In this document: positions 5,105-64,000 of the stretch, piece after piece
Position numbering within the stretch: the stretch's first letter is position 1
How the letters are laid out: each line of letters starts with the position of its first letter
Assembly: GCA_002813895.1 (NCBI GenBank)
Contig: CP024912.1
Location: 930,001 to 994,000 of the forward strand
Direction of reading: 5' to 3'
Length of the DNA: 64,000 bases
Source of the DNA: Cyanobacterium sp. HL-69
GTDB taxonomy: Bacteria > Cyanobacteriota > Cyanobacteriia > Cyanobacteriales > Cyanobacteriaceae
Position numbers and translations under genes: made by a program
The notes under the pieces: model-generated
Told to the model about the DNA's origin: nothing
What the model saw: only the letters and a program-made list of their open reading frames with translations
Database searches by the model: none

Positions 5105-5944
5105 ATGAAGATAAAAGAACTTATTTTTTATCCTATCAAATCTTGCCGAGGGATTCATCTTTCCCATGCAAAAGTGGGTGACAAGGGGTTATCAGATTAT
5201 AACAATAATTTATACTACGATCGCACTTTCATGATCGTTGACGAATCAGGCAAATTTATCACCCAAAGACAATATCCCCAACTAGCCAGAGTTATCGTCA
5301 CCATCGAAGGGAAAAAAATTACCCTCAGTTTTGATGACTCCTCCATGGATTCTATTACCTTTATTCCCCAAAATCAGGGTAATACAATTGAAGTACAAGT
5401 ATGGGGTGATCGCACTTCAGCCATCAATCAAGGAAAAGAAGTAGCCCAATGGTTTCAAGAAATCCTCTCAGTCAAAAATTGTCGCCTAGTCAAACAAGAC
5501 GACTACAACATTCGAGCCATTAACCCCCAATATAGTACCCAATCAAATCAACCCGTCAGCTTTGCCGATGGCTTCCCCTATCTCCTCACCAACACCGCCT
5601 CATTAGACTATCTCAATCAAAAATTAAAGGAAAAATATCCCCACCAACAGCAACAAATATCCATGGATAGATTTCGCCCTAATATTGTCATCGAAACCGA
5701 TACCCCATTCATCGAAGACACATGGGAAAATATTACCCTTGATGAGATAAAATTTAAGATAGCCAAACCATGTAGTCGTTGTAATATAACTACCACAGAT
5801 CAAATAACAGGAAAAATCAACCCTCAAAATGAACCTTTAAAAACTCTTAGTAGTTTCCGTAACGTACCTCAACAGGGAATTATGTTTGGACAAAATATGA
5901 TTGCCCTTAACCGTGGACAATTGACAATAAATCATGGAAAATAG
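5105..5944 (+). CDS. MOSC-domain protein (YcbX-like)
   Basis: 279 residues. A MOSC N-terminal beta-barrel (IKELIFYPIKSCRGI) is followed by the MOSC domain, with the conserved Cys in KPCSRCNITTTD (about residues 219-229) and the closing GIMFGQNMI. MOSC proteins bind molybdenum cofactor and act in sulfur-group transfer or reduce N-hydroxylated compounds. The ATG follows the dnaB stop with no gap, and its ribosome binding site (GAGGAGGG) lies inside the end of dnaB, so the two are translationally coupled. No separate ferredoxin domain is present. Confidence 0.88.
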   Translation: MKIKELIFYPIKSCRGIHLSHAKVGDKGLSDYNNNLYYDRTFMIVDESGKFITQRQYPQLARVIVTIEGKKITLSFDDSSMDSITFIPQNQGNTIEVQVWGDRTSAINQGKEVAQWFQEILSVKNCRLVKQDDYNIRAINPQYSTQSNQPVSFADGFPYLLTNTASLDYLNQKLKEKYPHQQQQISMDRFRPNIVIETDTPFIEDTWENITLDEIKFKIAKPCSRCNITTTDQITGKINPQNEPLKTLSSFRNVPQQGIMFGQNMIALNRGQLTINHGK

Positions 5945-6179
5945 ATAGTCTAATTTATTCCTAACAGATTTTGTCTTTATCTCCTCATCCCTTTGTTTCA
6001 TATTATATTTTTTAAAATTAAGTTTTCACGATATATTACTGCTGTCTTGCTGATAGAGGCTAGAGGGATCACACTAAAAGATTTAGGAAACATTTTGTTC
6101 AAAGGTACAATGATTAATTATTGTCAGAATTATTTGTGGAAAATATTCGTAAAAATAATTTAATAAAAATATACTTTTC

Positions 6180-7319
6180 ATGTTTTTAGAGCAGTTATAT
6201 CTCCAACATTTTAGAAACTATATTCAAGAAGAAATAAAATTTACTAATAATAAAATAATACTCTTAGGAGATAATGCCCAAGGAAAATCTAATATTCTTG
6301 AATCAGTTGAACTACTGTCCACCCTCAAAAGTCATCGTAGTACCAAAGACCTAGAATTAGTTTATCATGATCGTCTTTATGGACAAATAAAAGCAACCCT
6401 CAAAAATAAATACGCAGACTATGATTTAAGCATTACTATCCCCGCTAAAGGCAAAAAAGAACTAAAAATAAATCAAGAAAAAGTTAGTCGTAATTTTGAA
6501 TTTCTAGGCTTATTAAATACCGTTCTTTTTTCTAGCTTAGACATAGATTTAGTCAGAGGAAGCCCTGAATATAGACGTAATTGGGTAGATAGTTTATTAA
6601 TTCAGTTAGAGCCAATTTATTATCAATTAATCAAAAGTTATTACCATGTTTTAAAACAAAGAAATGCTCTCCTAAAACAGATCAAAAAAATGGGCATTAA
6701 TTCCCTAGAAACGTTAAAACAAGACGTAAAGGCGATCGAATTGAGTTTATGGGATGATAAATTAGCCGAAGCAGGTTCAAGAGTTAGTAGAAGAAGAGCA
6801 AGAGTCTTGCAAAAAATAGAACCTCTTGCCAAATTTTGGCATAACGAAATTAGTAATAAAACAGAAAAATTATTAATTAATTATACTCCTAATGTCTCTT
6901 GGGAAAAAGATACTCCAGAAAGTGTACAAAACGCCATAAAACTCGAAATAGAACAAAAAAAAATAGCAGAAATAAACTTAGGAAATACCCTCGTAGGACC
7001 TCATCGGGACGAAATAGAGTTTATAATAAATGATAGCGTAGCAAGAAATTATGGATCTCAAGGACAACAGAGGACTCTAGTTTTAGCCCTTAAGTTAGCT
7101 GAATTACAGCTAATAGAGCAAGTGGTAGGAGAGCCACCATTACTATTGTTAGACGATGTAATGGCAGAATTGGATTTAAAAAGACAGCAGCAGTTATTGG
7201 ATTCTCTAGGCGATCGCTTTCAAACTATAATAACAACAACACACTTAAACTATTTTGAAACTAATTTATTAAATCAGGCTCAGATTATTAAAGTTCAAGG
7301 GGGAAAATTATATTTTTAG
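6180..7319 (+). CDS. recF: DNA replication and repair protein RecF
   Basis: 379 residues of an SMC-like ATPase that loads RecA at gapped DNA with RecO and RecR. Walker A is GDNAQGKS (residues 30-37); the signature region is YGSQGQQRTLVLALKLAEL; Walker B is LLLLDDVMAELD. Opening residues MFLEQLYLQHFRNY are typical of RecF. It is not beside dnaA/dnaN as in many bacteria, which is usual for cyanobacteria. The upstream 235 bp are AT-rich and show no other gene. Confidence 0.95.
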   Translation: MFLEQLYLQHFRNYIQEEIKFTNNKIILLGDNAQGKSNILESVELLSTLKSHRSTKDLELVYHDRLYGQIKATLKNKYADYDLSITIPAKGKKELKINQEKVSRNFEFLGLLNTVLFSSLDIDLVRGSPEYRRNWVDSLLIQLEPIYYQLIKSYYHVLKQRNALLKQIKKMGINSLETLKQDVKAIELSLWDDKLAEAGSRVSRRRARVLQKIEPLAKFWHNEISNKTEKLLINYTPNVSWEKDTPESVQNAIKLEIEQKKIAEINLGNTLVGPHRDEIEFIINDSVARNYGSQGQQRTLVLALKLAELQLIEQVVGEPPLLLLDDVMAELDLKRQQQLLDSLGDRFQTIITTTHLNYFETNLLNQAQIIKVQGGKLYF

Positions 7320-7440
7320 GTCAACATGAAGATAAAAATGTAACTTTTTTCTGAATCCTGTACTCACCAAAATAATCAGATAAGATAAAAGACGGTAATT
7401 AAAATAAAAAATAATAATAGTTTAGCTCTAATTATCTTTA

Positions 7441-8394
7441 ATGGCTGAATATAATCCACAAAATTTTCTAATTCTGGCAGTGGATGATAACTCAATTAAT
7501 CGTATCATGCTAGAAAAAATACTCACTAAGGCGGGGTATCAAATCAAGGTGCTTGGAGATAGTGAAGAATTTTTGAATTTGATTAATAACATTAAGCCAG
7601 ATTTGATGTTGCTAGACTTAATGATGCCAAAAATTGATGGCTTAGAACTATGTCGGTTAATTAAAGCGAAAAATCATTATAAAGAGATTCCCATCATATT
7701 TTTAACCGCTAATGACGCAAAAGAGAATGTGATAGAGGCTTTTCGCTCAGGGGCGGTAGATTATGTAACTAAACCCTTTAATAATGAAGAACTATTAGCA
7801 CGAATTCAAACCCATATAGAATTAAAGTTTACTAGAGATCAACTAAAAAAAGCCCTCGTTGATTTAGAAAAATTAGCTACTACCGATGAGTTAACCCAAA
7901 TAGCTAACCGTCGTCATTTCCTTAATTTAGCCAATCGAGAATTTAATCGTGCCAAAAGGCAAAAAACGTTTTTTTCCATGATTATCCTTGATATAGATTA
8001 TTTTAAACGCATTAATGATAACTATGGGCATCCTGTGGGAGATATAGCTATTAAATTGGTGGCTCAAAAATGTCAGCAATCCATTAGAGGAGAAGACTTG
8101 TGTGCAAGATGGGGGGGGGAAGAATTTATTGTGGTGGTTTATGATGCCCTGATTGATAAAGCTAAACACGTGGCAAATCGCATTCGGGAAAAAATAGCGG
8201 AAATTTCTTTACCTGTTGATAATGATAAGTTTCAAATTACCGTTAGTGTTGGTATTGCACAATATCAAGATACAGACCAAAATTTAGATCAAATTGTATC
8301 AAGGGCAGATAAGGCTTTGTATCGAGCAAAAAATAATGGCAGAAATAGAATTGTTTTAGAAGATGAGTTACTAGATGTATCTAAAGATACTTAA
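7441..8394 (+). CDS. Response regulator with GGDEF diguanylate cyclase output
   Basis: 317 residues. The receiver domain (about 10-125) has acidic pair D15/D16, phosphoacceptor D59 in LMLLDLMMPKIDG, and K111 in VTKPF. The GGDEF domain (about 145-310) has the active-site loop GGEEF at 225-229 and an inhibitory-site RxxD (RGED, 216-219) exactly five residues before it. It should make cyclic di-GMP under phosphorylation control and be product-inhibited. No histidine kinase gene is next to it, so the partner is unknown. With the EAL tail at the left edge, the window has one maker and one breaker of c-di-GMP. Confidence 0.94.
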   Translation: MAEYNPQNFLILAVDDNSINRIMLEKILTKAGYQIKVLGDSEEFLNLINNIKPDLMLLDLMMPKIDGLELCRLIKAKNHYKEIPIIFLTANDAKENVIEAFRSGAVDYVTKPFNNEELLARIQTHIELKFTRDQLKKALVDLEKLATTDELTQIANRRHFLNLANREFNRAKRQKTFFSMIILDIDYFKRINDNYGHPVGDIAIKLVAQKCQQSIRGEDLCARWGGEEFIVVVYDALIDKAKHVANRIREKIAEISLPVDNDKFQITVSVGIAQYQDTDQNLDQIVSRADKALYRAKNNGRNRIVLEDELLDVSKDT

Positions 8395-12325: not shown

Positions 12326-12730
12326 ATGCAATTTTCCACCGATTCTAAGAATAGTTTTTCTAAGAAAAAGGTCATTAGTATTATTTTTGCTTTCCTTGGT
12401 ACGATCGCCCCTTTTGGTGGTTTACACAAATTTTATTTAGGACAACCCATTTGGGGGGTACTATATCTTGCCTTGGGCTGGAATAACCCTTCTTTGATAA
12501 AAATCGCCTGTGCGGTGGATGTAGTGTTGTACTTGTTGCCGTCTCAGGATATACTCTCCTTCAATTCTAACAACGGTGACGTGCAGATGGCAAATTTACA
12601 GCAAAAATCTTTGGTGGCACAAAACACCGTCGATGTAGTATCAGCCATCAGAGAGTTGGAAACCTTGCGCCAAGAGGGGTTAATCTCGGAATACGAATTT
12701 GAGCAAAAACGCCGTGCTTTAATTGATTAA
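12326..12730 (+). CDS. TM2-like membrane protein with C-terminal SHOCT motif
   Basis: About 134 residues from ATG 12326 (MQFSTDSKNSF). The middle has a TM2-type hydrophobic hairpin: AFLGTIAPFGGLHKFYLGQ, then WGVLYLALGW, then a second membrane helix with CAVDVVLYLL. The C-terminus (IRELETLRQEGLISEYEFEQKR) is a SHOCT motif, a short module that often ends bacterial membrane or oligomerising proteins. Function is unknown. An in-frame TTG start at 12293 is possible, but it has no ribosome binding site and its residues are not TM2-like. Confidence 0.8.
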   Translation: MQFSTDSKNSFSKKKVISIIFAFLGTIAPFGGLHKFYLGQPIWGVLYLALGWNNPSLIKIACAVDVVLYLLPSQDILSFNSNNGDVQMANLQQKSLVAQNTVDVVSAIRELETLRQEGLISEYEFEQKRRALID

Positions 12731-12737
12731 TAAAAAA

Positions 12738-12759
12738 GCAAGGGATTTAAACCCCTTGC
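12738..12759 (-). terminator. Terminator of the porin gene
   Basis: A 7-bp GC-rich stem (GCAAGGG / CCCTTGC arms) lies between the convergent TM2/SHOCT and porin genes. Read on the minus strand it is followed at once by TTTTTT (12732-12737), the form of an intrinsic terminator for the porin. Confidence 0.7.
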
Positions 12760-12796
12760 CAAAGATAAAAAATTGTGAGCCTAAAAACTTATTTAC

Positions 12797-14410
12797 TTAG
12801 AAAGTAAAAGTAGTTCTCAAAGTGCCGATATAAACTGGATCATTTGCACCACTATCCTGATTAGGTGCTGTTAATACGATCAATCCAGGGGTGAGACTAA
12901 TACGATTGTTAATAGGATACTTGTAAGATACTTCGATGTGCCAAGGAGTATCGTTAGAAAAAGTTTGATTAACTCCACCTAAAGTTAACCCCGTTAAATG
13001 GGGTTCCGCACCCACGATAATAGCGCCGAGACTACCTTCTTTTCCTAAGTCAGGGAACGCCAGAGCTACGGCATAATTCCAAATTTCTGCACTACCAGTG
13101 CTTTGAAGTTGAGCATCCGTATAACCGCCCCAAGCACGAAGGCTAAATTTAGGGCTAATATCTAATTGACCTTGAATACCATAGGAGTCGCTAGAAACAG
13201 GGATTCCATTTAGTCCCAATCCTTGTAAATTACCAAATCTGGTACCTGTGCCACCAAAGTTAAAAGCTGAACCTGCACCGTTTGGATCATAACCTTTAAT
13301 GTAAGTAAAGCCAAGTTTAAATCGGTTACTAGGTTTAAAGACTAATTGCCCCATGGCAGAATAGTTACCATCGAATAAGCCTCTGCCGTCAGCAGGATTA
13401 TTGCCACCCCTTGCCAAATAACCAGCAGAAAGCTCAAATTTATCCCCCAATTGCTGTCTTAATCCGATACCTTGTCCCCCCAAACCTAGACGGTATATAG
13501 GATTTCTTTCTCCAAATCGAGATAATGCACCTCCTGCACCTCCTCCTGCTTCTAGTCCAGAGTTGAATGTATCAGCATAGAAATGGTGTCCTCCTAAACT
13601 GGCCATGGTAAATACCCTTGTTTTGGGAGTCAGGGAGAAGTAGTAGTGAAGACGGTCTAAGGTTACATTATTGTCTGCTTGTCCATCATAGGCAAATCGC
13701 CCTTCATCGGTAAAGGTTTGAGAGCCAAAGGAGTTACCCAGATTACCTGCAGTTAGACGAGTGAATAAAACATCGTTACCAGTAAAACTGGTGGACATTT
13801 GTAGCCTTACTCTGGAGGTGAGGGTGGCTTGGGCGTTAAAGTCTTCCCTGACTCCTGTGAGGGGGTTCGTAACATCTCCTCCAAAGGCATCAGCGAGGGT
13901 GAAGGCAACTTCTCCAGCTAATTTTGTTGTGGTGGAAAATTGATTATCTTCTAAGAAGGCTACCCTACCCTCTAGGTTATCAACTCTGGCACCGAGGGTG
14001 GCGAGTTCGGTTTCAAATTCGGCAATTAGTCTTCTGAGGGCTGCAATATCTTCTTCTCCTACTCCTCCTGTGCCGATTAAGCGTTCGATGGATTGCATAC
14101 AGGCATTTAAACCCGCCGCAAATTCATAACGGCTTAACGCTCTATTTCCCCTGAATGTGCGATCGGGATAACCGACAATACAACCGTAACGCTCTACGAG
14201 ACTTCTTAGGGCTTCGTAAGCCCAGTCGGTGGGAGATACGTCGCTCAGTTGGTTTACTGAGGTAACTTGCCCCATGGATTCTTGATTGTCAATATCCATG
14301 ACATTAATTTGTGCATGGGCAGGGTTAGTGCTTATTAGGGTGGTAAGGGCAATTATTACTTTATAATTTGCTACACTCTTTAATGAAAAACAACCCGATT
14401 TTTTGGACAT
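12797..14410 (-). CDS. Outer-membrane porin with S-layer homology domain (OprB / iron uptake porin type)
   Basis: 537 residues. A signal peptide ends near AHAQ (about residue 34). An SLH domain follows (about 55-110: DVSPTDWAYEALRSLVERYG, then GYPDRTFRGNRALSRYEFA), then a coiled-coil segment (RRLIAEFETELATLGARVDNLEGR). The rest is an OprB-type beta-barrel ending in Phe (TTFTF), the usual outer-membrane sorting signal. In cyanobacteria the SLH part binds pyruvylated cell-wall polysaccharide and the barrel passes ions or small solutes. The label iron uptake porin is a family name; substrate cannot be read here. Confidence 0.92.
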   Translation of the reverse strand: MSKKSGCFSLKSVANYKVIIALTTLISTNPAHAQINVMDIDNQESMGQVTSVNQLSDVSPTDWAYEALRSLVERYGCIVGYPDRTFRGNRALSRYEFAAGLNACMQSIERLIGTGGVGEEDIAALRRLIAEFETELATLGARVDNLEGRVAFLEDNQFSTTTKLAGEVAFTLADAFGGDVTNPLTGVREDFNAQATLTSRVRLQMSTSFTGNDVLFTRLTAGNLGNSFGSQTFTDEGRFAYDGQADNNVTLDRLHYYFSLTPKTRVFTMASLGGHHFYADTFNSGLEAGGGAGGALSRFGERNPIYRLGLGGQGIGLRQQLGDKFELSAGYLARGGNNPADGRGLFDGNYSAMGQLVFKPSNRFKLGFTYIKGYDPNGAGSAFNFGGTGTRFGNLQGLGLNGIPVSSDSYGIQGQLDISPKFSLRAWGGYTDAQLQSTGSAEIWNYAVALAFPDLGKEGSLGAIIVGAEPHLTGLTLGGVNQTFSNDTPWHIEVSYKYPINNRISLTPGLIVLTAPNQDSGANDPVYIGTLRTTFTF

Positions 14411-14728
14411 TAAAACCTCACAACAGTTATTAAGAATTGGTTAAGAAAGACGATTAAAGTTTAGCTATTCTTTTGAGGAGGGTTTTGTATTGGTTAATAC
14501 CAATAATGAATTTGTATGCAATATAAGCATGGTTAAAATGATAAAATAGACTTAAGATGTTTTATGAAAAAAAAATAAATTTTTGTGATGAACAGGTTAA
14601 TTTATTTTTTATTATTCTTATTCAATATTTTGAGGGTGTTATCGGTTTTGTTTGGTTCGGTTTGTTTGTTATTATCTGAATAGCTAAAAATATTAATAAA
14701 TTGCTCTTTTTATTTTTGATATTTATTC
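14411..14728. other. 318-bp gap between divergent porin and pentapeptide genes
   Basis: AT-rich, no gene. It must hold the promoters of both flanking genes. A near-palindrome (ATTGGT-TAAT-ACCAAT, 14489-14504) could be an operator or small hairpin. At 14427-14445 a pair of CTTAA-type 8-mers on the minus strand resembles a Pho box but lies only 17 bp from the porin start codon, too close for a normal activator site. Confidence 0.4.
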
Positions 14729-15571
14729 ATGTCAAATTCTGATAAAAAATCTTCAGTTTTTCCCAAAATTTTTAAACGTTTTCAAAAAACTTTATCTTCA
14801 TTTGTAAATGCGATCGCCGAGGCCATTACTACTTCTGTTCACATTCCTGAAATAGCTATTGGACCCATTATTGGTTCTTTAATTACTTCGGCAACTACTT
14901 TAGTTATCGGCTTTTTAACTATTTCTAATATATTCAGTGAACAATTTTTATATCGCCCTTTGCAAATTCAAGATAGTAATGCCAATTTAAATTTACAATT
15001 GGAAAGTTATCGTCAAAATATTCTTAATAATTACCTTACTCAGACCACGGAATTAACCCTCAACTATCCTTTGTGGAAATTACAACAAAACTATAATCTT
15101 CTTCGGGCAAATACTCAGGCGGCTCTCAAGGAACTTGATGGGGAAAGAAAACGTTATATCATAATGTTCTTAGAGGATAATCATTTGCTCACTTTCAATA
15201 ACCATACAAGGGCAAGTAATATTTTAGAAAACTCTAACTTAGAGGAAGCACAATTAAGTAATTTAAATTTATCTTTTACTAATTTTAAAAATAGTAATTT
15301 AACCAAGGCAAATTTAAACTATGGCAATTTTCATAAAGTTAATTTTACCAAAGCTAACTTAACAGAAAGTAGTTTGATAAATGCTGATTTATCAGGAGCA
15401 TTTTTAGAAAAAGCTAATCTAACAAATGCTGATTTCACAAATAGCTGTTATGATATTTTTACGACATTACCAGATAATTTTGATCCCGTTAAAGCAAAAA
15501 TGAATTTAATTCAACCTTTTCATAACTGCCCAGTAATACTAATGGAAAAAGATCCAAAAAAAGCAAAATAA
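14729..15571 (+). CDS. Membrane-anchored pentapeptide repeat protein
   Basis: 280 residues. One or two membrane segments lie at about 48-75 (IGPIIGSLITSATTLVIGFLT). A soluble linker follows, then about fifteen A(N/D)LxX-type pentapeptides (about 170-240: SNLNLS, TNFKN, SNLTK, ANLNY, ANLTN, ADF), which fold as a right-handed four-sided helix. The C-terminal cap has YDIFTTLPDNFDP and a Cys pair. Cyanobacteria have many such proteins, and few have a known role. A protein-interaction scaffold at the membrane is the most that can be inferred. The glycosyltransferase gene follows 21 bp later and may share its transcript. Confidence 0.85.
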   Translation: MSNSDKKSSVFPKIFKRFQKTLSSFVNAIAEAITTSVHIPEIAIGPIIGSLITSATTLVIGFLTISNIFSEQFLYRPLQIQDSNANLNLQLESYRQNILNNYLTQTTELTLNYPLWKLQQNYNLLRANTQAALKELDGERKRYIIMFLEDNHLLTFNNHTRASNILENSNLEEAQLSNLNLSFTNFKNSNLTKANLNYGNFHKVNFTKANLTESSLINADLSGAFLEKANLTNADFTNSCYDIFTTLPDNFDPVKAKMNLIQPFHNCPVILMEKDPKKAK

Positions 15572-58475: not shown

Positions 58476-58536
58476 GACCAAACTATCACCAACGGAATAG
58501 CTCAATTCTAGCCCGAAAACAAGTCTTTGAAGATTG

Positions 58537-60936
58537 ATGTTTGTGAATCACCTACCCTATAATATTGCCACTACTCCCGTAGATATTTTTTTAGTTCAAG
58601 AAACAGAAATTAATGGCGATCGCCCCAACGACCTTAACCAAAATACCGACGAACTATTTGAGAGAATATTTAATAGACCTAGACCCACAGGACTACAAAG
58701 AATTATCGTACCACTATTCATCAACGATCAACCCCAAGGAGAAATAGTTGTTTTTGTTGCCCTAGGAAATGGAGATAATCTGGAAATAGTTGCCACCACC
58801 CTACTCAGTCGCATCAGAGAATATGTACGCCCCGATGTCCAAGAAGCCCTAGAACAATTGGTGGGCGATAGTGATAACCTTACCATCAACGGCATCCAGT
58901 CCACAGGCATTGATGGATTTTTTGATGGGCAACAATTACAACTAAGACTACAAATTCCCCCAAATTTACGTAGAACCATCGTTTACGGCTCAGGAAACCA
59001 AAATTTGCCCCCAGGGGCAGAAAATGCCATTAGACCAGCTTCTCTGAGCGGTTTTGTGAATCTCAGGGGCAGACAATCCTACCTTTGGAGTGGTAGTGGT
59101 AACCTCGGACGAGAAACCTTTGGGCTGGGCGTAGATGGAGCAATCAATTATCGAGGCTGGGTATTGGAAGGCAGTGGCACCTATAGCGAAGGGGCAACCC
59201 CCTCCTTTGTCAGGTCTGATATTCGCTTGGTGAGGGATGACCCCAACAACGGTATCCGCTATGTCATGGGGGATTTATTCAGCTTCACAAGGGGTTATCA
59301 AAGTTTTGTTCCCATGGGAGGCATCGCCATGGTGCGCAATTTTTCTTTGCAACCATACCTTGTCACTGTACCCACAGGACAATTTGAATTTTTCCTCGAG
59401 CGCCCCTCCACGGTGGGAATATTTGTCAACGGCTTATTGCGACAAACCCTACAACTTCCTGCGGGAACTCAGGATATTCGTAATTTTGCCCTCAGTACAG
59501 GACAGAATAATATTACCCTACAAATTACCGATGATGTGGGACAAGTGCGCAACCTCTCCTTTTCTGCACCCCTCGCCTCGGACTTATTGGCGGTGGGTTT
59601 AAGTCAATTTGGGGTAGGAGTGGGTGTACCCTCTTTTAGTGAAGAAGGCACCCGAAATTATGATACGTCTCGCCCCATTGCCACGGGCTTTTATCGCCAA
59701 GGTATTGCCCCTAACCTTACCCTAGGAGCTTATTTTCAGGGGGCGAATGTGCAACAGTTATTTGGCTCGGAGGGCGTTTTAGCAACCAATTTGGGAAATT
59801 TTGGTTGGGATATGGCACTGAGTAACAATCCTGTGGGGGTTGACCATAGTTTTCGTCTCAGGTATCAATATTTACCCCTCACCACGGCAGGGCGTAGGGC
59901 GCCTAATTTTGGTTTTAATGTGGAATATCAGGGGCCTTTTTTTCAGCGGTTTGGTAACTTGAGCATTGGTAATCCTGACAATGTTTTTAGTGATTCTGTT
60001 AATACGGTGGCGTGGAATTTAGGTGTTAATTATGGACAAAGATTAACCGATAATTTAGGGGTTAATTTTAATGTCGGTTATCAAATAGGAAGTTTAGATA
60101 ATCCTGATGGTTATCGAGGGGCGATCGCCCTTAACACCAGATTAAGTAGTAATATGTCCTTAAACGTTAACCTTAGCCATCGTTGTCAACAGTCGGGGGA
60201 AGATGATACTCAGTTGAGGGTAAACCTATTACAAAGCGGTAGAAACCAGTCTATCAGTGCTAGAAATACCCTAACCACCGAAGGAGAAGGCACCACGGAA
60301 GTAAGGTGGAATCGCCGTAATCCCAACACCTTCAACAGTATTAATAGTAATCTCACCCTTAATCTTAATCCCCAGCCCCGCAGTTTTGGCTCTCGTTTAG
60401 GCTTGGATTATCGTACCTTTTTTGGTAGTCTCAATTTTGCCCATAACTATGATCAAAGCCAACAAAGAAGTAATCTTAACTTTGATACCGCTTTTGTTTT
60501 TGCAGGGGGGCGTCTTGGTTGGACTCGTCCTGTGACGGATAGTTTTGTGATTATTGCCCGTAATGATAATTTTTCAAATCAATCTATTGTGGTTAATCCT
60601 AGCACAAGGGGACACATTGCCGAAGCAGGAATTTTTGGACCCGCTGTGGTGCCAACTTTAAGCTCCTACTCTCTGAGCAATATTCGCATTGATGCCCCTG
60701 ATTTACCCCTCGGTTTTGATTTGGGAGAATCGGCTTTTACCCTTTACCCTACCTACAGAAGTGGTAGCGTTATTGTGGTGGGTACTGATGCTACTGTGTT
60801 TGTCAGGGGTACTTTACAAGATGGGGAAGGAAATCCCATTGCCCTTCAAGCAGGGGAAGTGATTTCCCTTTCTAATCCTGATTTTGAACCTTTAACCTTA
60901 TTTACCAATCAGGTGGGGTGTACAGTAACAAATTAA
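58537..60936 (+). pseudogene. Outer-membrane usher of a chaperone-usher pilus, 3' end cut off by the transposon
   Basis: 799 residues remain. The usher N-terminal domain starts near residue 50 (LQRIIVPLFINDQPQGEIVVF); the beta-barrel and plug follow (PTGQFEFFLERPSTVGIFVNGLL); the first C-terminal domain is partly present (SGSVIVVGTDATVFVRGTLQDG, then LSNPDFEPLTLFTNQVG). After G at codon ending 60918 the frame runs into the transposon end and stops after CTVTN. Perhaps 50-80 residues of the usual C-terminal domains are lost. The N-terminus has no visible signal peptide and an upstream in-frame stop (58528), which is also odd. Confidence 0.85.
60858..60884 (+). other. Candidate PAM (AGTG) and protospacer of the transposon
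   Basis: Cas12k recognises a GTN PAM 5' of the target and type V-K transposons insert roughly 50-66 bp beyond it, left end nearest. In the window before the left end the only GT at this distance is at 60859-60860. PAM GTG ends at 60861; the insertion point is 57 bp further. The protospacer would be about 60862-60884. It rests on family rules; the matching spacer is outside the window. Confidence 0.4.
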
Positions 60937-61097
60937 ATGACGTGATAACAAATTATTGTCGCTGAAAGTAAATACTTCTAAAATCTTTGTGCATAAAGCA
61001 TCACTACTTATACTTCCCTAAATCAGGTTTGATCGTTTTTCAAATTAAATTAACAAATTAAGTGTCGTTTTTCTGAAATATAACAAATTATATGTCA
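60919..61097 (+). mobile_element. Left end of a V-K CAST transposon with four TnsB-type repeats
   Basis: The end starts TGTACAG at 60919, as in known V-K CAST left ends. Four repeats share TAACAAATTA followed by a TGTCG-like end: 60926-60942 (TGACG), 60946-60961 (TTGTCGC), 61051-61067 (GTGTCG) and 61081-61097 (TGTCAT). These fit TnsB binding sites. The 89-bp spacing between the second and third pair, and an AT-rich middle, match the layout of Tn7-like ends. The expected 5-bp duplication would be TGGGG (60914-60918). Confidence 0.82.
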
Positions 61098-61154
61098 TAT
61101 AATAAATATTAATCTACTATGTATTAATAAAACATTTATGTAGGAGTTATGGGG

Positions 61155-62832
61155 ATGGATGACCAATTTTCCGATGCACCAGAATTAATAACTCAACTCT
61201 CTCCCGAAGAACAGAAAATAGCTGATGTCATTGAAGACTTACTGGAGCCGTGCGATCAGGCGAAGCCTGCCACTTCGTGACCGCAAAACTTATGGGGAAA
61301 AGTTAAAACGAGCATCAATCCAATTGAATAAGTCAGTTCGCACTATCCAAAGATATGTCAAACAATGGGAAAAAGATGGTTTGCATGGCATCGCCCAAAA
61401 TAATCGAGCAGATAAGGGATCTTATAGAATTGATAGACGATTGCAGGATTTTATTGTTAAGACTTATCGGGAAGGCAATAAAGGTAGTCGAAGAATTACT
61501 CCCAAGCAAGTTTATTTACGGGCATTCGCTCAAGCCGAGAATTGGGGTATCAACCCTCCCTCTCACATGACGGTGTATCGTATCCTCAATCCAATTATTG
61601 CTGAAAAAGAAAATAAGAAAAGGGTTAGAAGTCCGGGGTGGAGAGGTACAAGGTTAGCTGTATCCACCAGAGCAGGGACAGATATTAATGTGGAGTATAG
61701 TAATCATGTGTGGCAATGTGACCATACTCGAGCTGATATTCTTCTCGTAGATAAATTTGGTGAATTATTAGGCAGACCTTGGCTAACCACAGTAATAGAT
61801 ACTTATTCTCGCTGTATTATGGGTATACATCTTGGTTTTGATGCCCCTAGTTCTCAAGTGGTTGCTTTGGCTCTACGTCACGCTATTTTACCCAAAAGTT
61901 ATAGTTCTGACTATGGACTACACGAGGATTGGGGAACTTATGGTAAACCTGAGTATTTTTACACTGACGGCGGTAAAGATTTTCGTTCTAATCATCTTCA
62001 ACAAATCAGCTTACAGTTAGGTTTTACTTGTCATTTACGCAGTCGCCCTAGTGAGGGTGGTGTGGTAGAACGTCCTTTTAAAACCTTGAACACGGAGGTA
62101 TTTTCTACTTTACCAGGATATACAGGTGGTAATGTTCAAGAACGTCCAGAGGATGCGGAAAAGGAAGCCTGTTTAACGTTGAAAGATTTGGAGAAACTAA
62201 TTGTCCGCTACATTGTGGATAACTACAATCAACGTCTTGATGCTCGTATGGGAGAACAAACTCGTTTTGTGCGTTGGGAAGCTGGATTACTTTCTGTGCC
62301 ACATATTCTTTCTGAACGAGAGTTAGATATTTGCTTAATGAAACAGTCACGGAGAAGAGTGCAAAAGGGTGGTCATCTCCAATTTGAAAATCTGATTTAT
62401 AAGGGAGAATATCTCGCAGGTTATGAAGGAGAAACTATCATCATTCGCTATGACCCTAGGGATATTACAAGCATTTTAGTATATCGTCGTGAGAATAATA
62501 AAGAGGTTTTCCTGACTCGTGCCTATGCGGTGGATTTAGAGTGTGAGTCTTTATCCTTGATCGATGCGAAAGCTAGTGCTAAAAGAGTAAGAAATGCTGG
62601 AAGAAGTTTGAGTAATCGTAGCATTTTGATGGAGGTAGAGGAACGCTCGAACTTTACAGTGAAGAAAACGAAAAAACAACGACAGAAAGAGGAACAAGAA
62701 CGAGTCAAGCCTTCCATACCTTCCCCTGTCTTGAAAACAACGGAACTAGAAGATGAGCCTTCTGGTTTTTCTGATGATCATTGGGTGGAGGTTGTTGACT
62801 ATGAAGAACTACAAGAAGATTTCGATTTTTAG
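61155..62832 (+). pseudogene. tnsB: Transposase TnsB, frame broken near the 5' end by a 25-bp insertion
   Basis: The proper start is ATG 61155 (AGGAG eight bases before), giving MDDQFSDAPELITQ and then IEDLLEPCD; a 25-bp insertion follows, bringing a TGA at 61278. Beyond it the frame resumes DRKTYGEKLKRASIQLN, in family order. Without the insertion the protein would have 550 residues. From the alternative ATG 61225, 535 residues are open, with the DDE triad D166, D248 and E282 (that numbering) and the C-terminal TnsC-contact end. Re-start at 61225 could give a nearly complete protein without the first ~34 residues. Confidence 0.82.
61256..61280. repeat. 25-bp inserted element in tnsB
   Basis: The insert lies between GCGA and CCGC and contains two small palindromes, CAGGC-GAA-GCCTG and CAC-TTC-GTG. 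Because GA precedes and ends the insert, its exact edges can slide by two bases. The sequence looks like the very short dispersed repeats described in cyanobacteria (SDR type), which insert in genes and intergenic DNA. I saw no second copy in this window. Confidence 0.65.
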
Positions 62833-62841
62833 GGGTTAGCC

Positions 62842-63669
62842 ATGAAAGCGGAAAATGTAGCAGAACAATTGGGTAAGATTGATGTCCCTGAAGCAAATCT
62901 ACAGGAGGAGATCAAAAGATTAGAGGGTAAAACGGTGGTAAGTTTAGAGCAAGTTGCGATACTTCATGAATGGTTGGAAAGTAAGCGTCAATCGAAACAG
63001 TCTTGTCGAGTGGTGGGGGAATCTCGTACGGGGAAAACTATTGCGTGTAATTCTTATCGTTTGAGACATAAGCCAATTCAAGAGAAGGGTAAACCTCCTC
63101 AAGTTCCAGTAATTTATTTACAAGTACCCCAAGAATGTGGAGCAAAAGATTTATTTCAAGGAATTATTGAACACCTCAAGTATCAGATGACTAAGGGTAC
63201 GGTAGCTGAAATCAGAAAAAGGGCGATGACAGTATTGCAAGGATGTGGTGTAGAGATGATCATTTTTGATGAGGCAGATCGCTGTAAACCAAAGACTTTT
63301 GCCGAAATTCGGGATATTTTTGATCATCTCAATATTGCGATTGTTCTTGTGGGTACAGATCGTTTGGATGCGGTAGTAAAGAAGGATGAGCAAGTTTATA
63401 ATCGTTTTCGGGCTTGTTATCGGTTTGGTAAGTTAGGGGGAGAAGAATTTAGTCGTACTGTCAACATTTGGGAGAAACAGGTGTTGAAGCTACCTGTGGC
63501 TTCTAATTTAACGAATAAAAGGATGTTGAAATTGATTGGGGAGGCGACTCAGGGTTACATCGGGATTATGGATATGGTTTTGCGTGATGCTGCAATTCGT
63601 TCTCTGAAGAAGGGACTTAACAAGATTGATTATGACACTTTAAAGGAAGTTGTACAGGAGTATAAATAA
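62842..63669 (+). CDS. tnsC: TnsC AAA+ ATPase of the V-K CAST
   Basis: 275 residues, about the size of known V-K TnsC. Walker A is GESRTGKT (59-66) and Walker B is MIIFDEAD (about 139-146); the sensor region VLVGTDRLDAVVKKDEQV follows. TnsC forms filaments on target DNA and links Cas12k/TniQ to TnsB. It starts 9 bp after the tnsB stop and its TAA overlaps the tniQ ATG. The frame is intact. Confidence 0.94.
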   Translation: MKAENVAEQLGKIDVPEANLQEEIKRLEGKTVVSLEQVAILHEWLESKRQSKQSCRVVGESRTGKTIACNSYRLRHKPIQEKGKPPQVPVIYLQVPQECGAKDLFQGIIEHLKYQMTKGTVAEIRKRAMTVLQGCGVEMIIFDEADRCKPKTFAEIRDIFDHLNIAIVLVGTDRLDAVVKKDEQVYNRFRACYRFGKLGGEEFSRTVNIWEKQVLKLPVASNLTNKRMLKLIGEATQGYIGIMDMVLRDAAIRSLKKGLNKIDYDTLKEVVQEYK

Positions 63670-64000
63670 TGGAAATTGAGCCTTGGTGGTTTACCGTAAC
63701 ACCTTACGAGGGTGAAAGCATCAGTCATTTTTTAGGTCGTTTTCGACGGGAGAATGTGCTTACTGTTTCTGGTTTGGGCAAGATAACTGGACTCTACGGG
63801 GCGATCGCCCGTTGGGAGAAGTTTCGTTTTAATCCTCCTCCTTCCCTTGAACAATTGGAGAAGTTAAGTGCGATCGTACAAGTGGAGGTAGCAACCTTAC
63901 AAACGATGTTTCCTTCTGCCCCTATGAAAATGACTCCTATTCGTCTTTGTTCGGTTTGTTATGGTGAAAAGCCTTATCATCGCATGAAATGGCAGTATAA
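63669..64000 (+). CDS. tniQ: TniQ of the V-K CAST, partial at the window edge
   Basis: ATG overlaps the tnsC stop (TAATG). 110 residues are visible: WWFTVTPYEGESISHFLGRF, then YGAIARWEKFRFNPPPSLEQLE, and a zinc-site start PIRLCSVCYGEKPYH. This is the short TniQ of V-K CASTs (around 165 residues), which bridges Cas12k and TnsC. The remaining third lies beyond the edge. Confidence 0.92.
   Translation, partial: MEIEPWWFTVTPYEGESISHFLGRFRRENVLTVSGLGKITGLYGAIARWEKFRFNPPPSLEQLEKLSAIVQVEVATLQTMFPSAPMKMTPIRLCSVCYGEKPYHRMKWQY

Follow-up and report, generated by a model that had tools for sequence, protein, structure and literature searches.

A predicted natural single-guide RNA for tRNA-gene homing in type V-K CRISPR-associated transposons of Cyanobacterium sp. 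HL-69 and its relatives

How does a transposon that is steered by guide RNAs keep the guide for its chromosomal home apart from the guides for other jumps? The question arises at the edge of a 64,000-nt stretch of Cyanobacterium sp. HL-69 (contig CP024912.1, G000:C1:930001-994000; 38.7% G+C; hereafter the window), where a type V-K CRISPR (clustered regularly interspaced short palindromic repeats)-associated transposon (CAST) begins at position 60919. According to the available text of Ziemann 2023, V-K elements carry one trans-activating CRISPR RNA (tracrRNA) followed by a CRISPR array; a truncated repeat of about 12 nt (R*) with a 17-nt anchor spacer comes next and is usually set apart (PMC9938897). 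In the element described here, the tracr sequence instead runs into R* and the anchor. We consider it quite probable, from sequence comparisons, that this fused tracr-R*-anchor unit is a natural single-guide RNA for homing to a tRNA gene.

The element, referred to as copy 1, lies mostly beyond the window edge and spans 10,399 bp (L009:4919-15317; window position = L009 position + 56000). It contains tnsB, tnsC, tniQ, a minus-strand cargo, a MerR gene, cas12k, one tracr unit and the far end, in this order. The tracr sequence continues via a hairpin directly into R* (~12 nt), which is followed by the 17-nt anchor spacer. The predicted hairpin pairs an antirepeat arm, AGTTCTT, with an R* arm, GAGAATT, through 7 bp around a 3-nt loop. 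The anchor matches tRNA-Leu(GAG) at 16 of 17 positions behind a GTT protospacer adjacent motif (PAM), and 51 bp separate the PAM from the element end, in line with the 46-82 given for V-K elements in the available text of Ziemann 2023 (PMC9938897). Rfam returned only the tRNA and two sub-threshold matches in the guide region, and no CRISPR array was seen on reading copy 1. The preliminary description, drawn from the window alone, had anticipated cargo and guide RNAs past the edge; the cargo and the predicted guide RNA are located there, with the tracrRNA after cas12k as sought, while the short array that it also expected is absent from copy 1.

The genome holds an inverted copy on L010 (copy 2), whose Cas12k and 535-aa TnsB proteins are 100% identical to those of copy 1. 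Its tnsB-side end is 81% identical, its tniQ has diverged too, and its cargo comprises two C5 methylases and a BpuJI-like restriction enzyme. Copy 2 keeps both guide systems, namely tracrRNA 1 with an array, followed by a second full tracr fused to an R*-anchor. The array consists of a 37-nt repeat split by an insertion sequence (IS) of ~914 bp, one 36-nt spacer and a degenerate repeat. For the copy 2 anchor, the PAM and first 12 nt match a single genome site, tRNA-Leu(TAG), which is occupied by another element, D. Element D itself has a fused unit with an anchor for this tRNA gene. A remnant, C, at tRNA-Leu(TAA) retains the hairpin, R* and anchor only, its upstream scaffold being deleted, and its anchor fits its own tRNA gene. 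Copy 1, D and C show 1, 1 and 2 anchor-tRNA mismatches and end-to-PAM distances of 51, 51 and 48 bp, respectively.

The two kinds of tracr unit differ in their pairing. In all six loci with both units, the antirepeat of the array-associated unit (AR1) favoured the array repeat (-8.3 to -12.5 kcal/mol) over R* (-0.6 to -4.3 kcal/mol). The loop arms of the fused hairpins vary in sequence and mostly still pair. Across 15 fused hairpins, which share ancestry and were picked as fused, 8-nt arms formed a mean of 5.9 bp with their own partner and 4.7 bp with foreign ones, and none of 10,000 permutations was as good (2 of 10,000 with 7-nt arms). These values come from a test with non-overlapping arms, on which we rely; an earlier version allowed overlap, which favoured the true pairing. 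RNAalifold draws the antirepeat-R* hairpin on an 8-row alignment (A3), and the scaffold shows two-sided changes in 17 of 52 pairs. In six of eight own-family units, the fused unit is preceded by a TATAAT motif at a constant distance; the remaining two, copy 1 and that of genome G295, have the upstream sequence of unit 1.

The fusion recurs in relatives. Cas12k loci comprised 29 stretches (L020-L048) and 80 kept of 130 that passed (L049-L128), and a tracr match was present in 103 of these 109. Two full tracr units occur in five (L020, L021, L022, L051, L059); L027 and L077 have one unit in two pieces. To these loci the anchor census added L009, L010 and L134-L140 and left out L020, L021, L022 and L044, which duplicate longer stretches, giving 108 rows, some duplicated between collections. 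A putative anchor was matched downstream in 85 rows, a count made without a shuffled control and with matches only partly verified as tRNA genes; the distance from the tracr match to the end of R* was 10-31 nt in 7 rows, 76 nt in L067 and 187-1622 nt in 77. The 23 rows with no anchor match include the fused units of copy 2 and G295. Searching 388 genomes of the order with a covariance model for the fused part gave matches in 68, and 30 model-matched loci were read, 17 of them fused and 13 not. L161 and L164 appear identical to L059 and L051, and one of the fused loci, L166, has a long loop and an AAAAG ending. Counting G150, fused units were read in 18 genomes of the order, including HL-69. 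In L067 (12150-12900), from a Crocosphaera metagenome-assembled genome, a fused anchor unit with a long loop precedes the array, and an apparent partial second tracr also lies ahead of it.

The features of copy 1 and its flanks are as follows, in window coordinates unless marked L009.
58534 to 60918, plus strand: 5' part of an usher-like outer-membrane gene interrupted by the element (Pfam Usher, 1.4e-14)
60914 to 60918, no strand: TGGGG, one half of a target duplication; copy 2 has the other half, at its cas12k-side end
60919 to 61140, plus strand: tnsB-side terminal region (right end in Ziemann's naming), with TGTACA and repeats
61149 to 61280, plus strand: frame of the usual TnsB N-terminus, 43 codons, with a stop inside a palindromic insertion (compared with the N-termini of relatives G384 and G348)
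61225 to 62832, plus strand: tnsB open reading frame (ORF), 535 aa, DDE transposase with altered N-terminus (Mu-transpos_C, 8e-19; rve, 3.2e-7, slightly under the cut-off)
62842 to 63669, plus strand: tnsC, AAA+ ATPase of the TniB family (TniB, 3.4e-34)
63669 to 64000 in the window, ending at L009:8139, plus strand: tniQ, 156 aa (match to TniQ of the Scytonema hofmanni CAST, ShCAST)
L009:8146-12549, minus strand: cargo (ORFs, Pfam, PADLOC)
L009:12595-13020: MerR gene, divergent from cas12k
L009:13041-14969: cas12k, 642 aa
L009 ~14977-15229: fused tracr-R*-anchor
up to L009:15317: cas12k-side end
L009:15350-15433: tRNA-Leu(GAG), 32 bp outside the element

By its sequence, the element is a type V-K CAST, because cas12k is present and the core proteins match chains from solved ShCAST structures (Cas12k, 1.4e-187; TnsB, 3.5e-228, aligned from ShCAST residue 51; TnsC, 2.2e-112; TniQ, 3.7e-62). 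PADLOC assigned Cas12k a value of 2.2e-249 with its Cas12k model and a higher-scoring match (1e-260) with a model labelled Cas12j. Tn5053-like transposons have a resolvase and no cas gene; a CRISPR-free element of this kind was ruled out by cas12k, and no resolvase was noticed among the L009 ORFs. Likewise, no tnsA was noticed among the listed L009 ORFs, at which no profile search for tnsA was aimed. Much of the preliminary description was thus borne out: the V-K assignment itself, now joined by the tracrRNA and the tRNA-proximal end, the order tnsB-tnsC-tniQ, the short TniQ, the DDE spacing of 82 and 34 (D166, D248, E282) and a cas12k within 25 kb, whose start lies 8.1 kb away from the end at 60919 and 5.0 kb beyond the window edge. 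Its remark that few such elements are known does not hold, since 95 genomes out of 388 in the class have a Cas12k match and Ziemann 2023 lists 118 systems in its available text (PMC9938897). The cargo of copy 1, encoded on one strand, includes a 450-aa protein with no Pfam or PADLOC match, a HerA-type ATPase and an N6/N4 DNA methylase. It is of defence type and possibly a candidate defence system.

The ends of the element were also as described. TGTACA begins at 60919 directly after TGGGG, and four exact TAACAAATTA repeats lie within the 222 bp of the tnsB-side end (60926, 60946, 61051, 61081). With up to 2 mismatches, 5 repeat matches were counted there against a mean of 2.0 and a maximum of 8 in shuffles; this count is weak alone, so the case at this end rests on the exact copies. 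The predicted far end with repeats was found as well, with 5 matches in 105 bp (shuffles: mean 0.33, maximum 3). As the available text of Ziemann 2023 calls the cas12k/tRNA side the left end (PMC9938897), the end in the window is the right end. CAST ends of the tnsB-side type without an adjoining tnsB were seen in L011 near 6991 and in L012 near 6057 (minus strand).

The TGGGG duplication that had been proposed exists, yet its partner lies beside copy 2, ~530 kb away, and not at the far end of copy 1. A search for a target-site duplication confined to copy 1 failed since TGGGG and ACCAG differ, a mismatch for which an inversion accounts. The 3' part of the usher gene adjoins copy 2 (L010, below 5229, minus strand). 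Homologues in G525, G384 and G065 are uninterrupted, and in G525, of the same genus, the two usher flanks adjoin each other and overlap slightly; G525 gave no match to the fused-guide covariance model. The split of the usher halves and of TGGGG, together with the joined flanks in G525, indicates a ~530-kb inversion between two CAST copies: one element inserted into the usher gene, and recombination of the inverted copies parted the halves. No duplication partner was found for the tRNA-side flank ACCAG, and at the expected reciprocal junction the tnsB-side flank of copy 2, AAATG, does not match it, which leaves a gap in the history of the tRNA-Leu(GAG) element. The G525 DNA around tRNA-Leu(GAG) likewise showed no match to the copy 2 flank.

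The sequences themselves show the anatomy of the fused unit, its guide-target match and spacing, the tracr chimera and the recurrence in relatives; its transcription, Cas12k loading and activity we infer. Cas12k would bind the single fused RNA, recognise the tRNA gene with it and recruit TniQ and TnsC, and insertion by TnsB would fall about 50 bp from the PAM. Complete members have a separate tracrRNA beside cas12k, with an antirepeat that fits the array repeat; it would serve the CRISPR array, so array-guided jumps and homing would use two different scaffolds. The two tracr units probably recombined in copy 1, which deleted the array and kept the homing guide.

This last step is suggested by the composition of the unit, of which positions 1-56 equal copy 2 unit 1 in 56/56 and positions 57-210 equal unit 2 in 149/154. 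The single fused unit of G295, compared with G384, is unit-1-like upstream (56/59) and at its start (52/55) and unit-2-like in the remainder (147/155). This second, independent chimera (L138) adjoins a broken cas12k, and no array is present. That both chimeras join units 1 and 2 explains why their arrays are lost, and recombination between units, within or between elements, appears to have removed them at least twice. For copy 1, a different course comes somewhat short of an even chance: the array was not lost within one element; instead, an already array-less element had its cvkR-cas12k and the 5' part of its tracr replaced through gene conversion from copy 2. Copies 1 and 2 share near-identical blocks at tnsB-tnsC (L009 ~5107-7700) and cvkR-cas12k (~12677-14859, identical over this compared part), with different defence cargo between them and with ends, tniQ and cargo diverged or unrelated, a pattern that is probably due to gene conversion. 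The same kind of chimera arose independently in G295, which argues for recombination between units. By either route, unit 1 became joined to unit 2.

It could also be asked whether the fused unit is more than an ordinary V-K arrangement, in which R*-anchor is a delocalized CRISPR RNA (crRNA) that pairs in trans with a normal tracrRNA and the second tracr is a bystander that a tandem insertion or a partial duplication left behind. Both R* and the 17-nt anchor belong to the parts described in the available text of Ziemann 2023 (PMC9938897), and unit 2 is a true tracr copy. The antirepeat of unit 2 (AR2) fits its own R* best in only four of six loci, with a tie in L051 and a slightly worse fit in L059, in a comparison of strands of unequal length. 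Against this stand the poor pairing of AR1 with R*, the recurrence of the fusion with covarying arms and scaffold, and the finding of no tracr match besides the fused unit in the stretches searched for copy 1, D and G295; we therefore hold the ordinary arrangement to be improbable. Decay is a somewhat better, still doubtful explanation: damaged copies, one of them array-less, would be kept uniform by gene conversion, with a fused RNA that is now functionless. A palindromic insertion of ~25 bp (about 61257-61280) shifts the tnsB frame near its start, identically in both copies, and the 535-aa ORF starts at 61225 in a frame other than the usual N-terminal one, so the element may be crippled. The insertion was considered as an abundant dispersed repeat and rejected, the genome containing only the two tnsB copies and one match with 3 mismatches. 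The IS within the copy 2 repeat, the remnants C and D and the solo ends also fit decay. Nevertheless, the Cas12k and 535-aa TnsB frames are open and their proteins identical between copies, the insertion touches only the region before ShCAST TnsB residue 51, and G384 and G348 combine the usual TnsB N-terminus with a fused guide, although cas12k of G384 has an internal stop. Beyond the tnsB damage, the AR2 result and the limits stated with the census and the arm comparison, further points weigh against a dedicated homing guide. The copy 2 anchor is not matched in its present flank, and that of G295 matches its own tRNA poorly. The hairpin is short (2-4 bp by a simple measure) in G601, G507, L059 and L067, and RNAalifold draws none on a wider alignment (A2), probably because longer loops are misaligned. 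A clear TATAAT before the fused unit is lacking outside the own family. Finally, a single origin of the fusion is supported neither by a quick Cas12k tree, in which dual loci fall in three places, nor by a quick unit tree (228 columns), which speaks against a single duplication.

The engineered ShCAST single-guide RNA combines tracrRNA, a short loop, a truncated repeat and a spacer in one RNA. The unit described here has the same layout; it is natural, has another loop and antirepeat and is apparently dedicated to homing. As far as the available text of Ziemann 2023 describes ShCAST and the CAST of Anabaena PCC 7120 (AnCAST), these share with our element tnsB-tnsC-tniQ, a variable cargo, a tracrRNA after cas12k, a small DNA-binding gene, often MerR-type CvkR, divergent from cas12k, a GTN PAM and a truncated repeat with a 17-nt tRNA-gene anchor whose PAM lies 46-82 nt from the end (PMC9938897). 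The difference is that R*-anchor is here fused to its own tracrRNA and that complete relatives have two tracrRNAs. The same text calls R*-anchor 'usually clearly separated' from the array, and we count the fused form as a V-K variant on account of this 'usually'; it also reports that 210 regulator genes, of which 169 occur with cas12k, had 90 arrays nearby, so we treat the array as usual, not defining (PMC9938897). Array-less CASTs with only a delocalized crRNA resemble copy 1 in having a homing guide without an array, and the available text on them does not mention tracrRNA fusion (PMC11656645). The Cas9 tracr-L, termed a natural single guide RNA in the available text of its report, also derives from a tracr locus; it represses cas genes via Cas9, is concerned with neither transposition nor Cas12 and is a second transcript, not a second tracr gene (PMC11417352). 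In our literature search, no paper joined cas12k and 'two tracrRNA', 'natural sgrna' occurred in none of the matches listed and 'natural single guide rna' with tracrRNA only in the Cas9 paper; preprints and key V-K homing papers lay outside its scope, which makes the novelty provisional.

We lean slightly towards a broader view, in which a set of V-K CASTs, probably of multiple origins, uses tracrRNA 1 for array crRNAs and mobile targets and a second tracrRNA with its own promoter as a natural single guide for homing. Homing would thereby be insulated, recombination between tracrRNAs could eliminate the array, and a change in one 17-nt tail could give new tRNA targets. CAST tools may draw on natural single guides with a ~12-nt R* and varied loops as ready scaffolds, and the split usher gene illustrates how paired CASTs can rearrange a chromosome. 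If the prediction is true, evolution would have made a Cas12k single-guide RNA much like the version of the engineers, and the fused unit would give a testable answer to how CASTs separate their homing and jumping guides.

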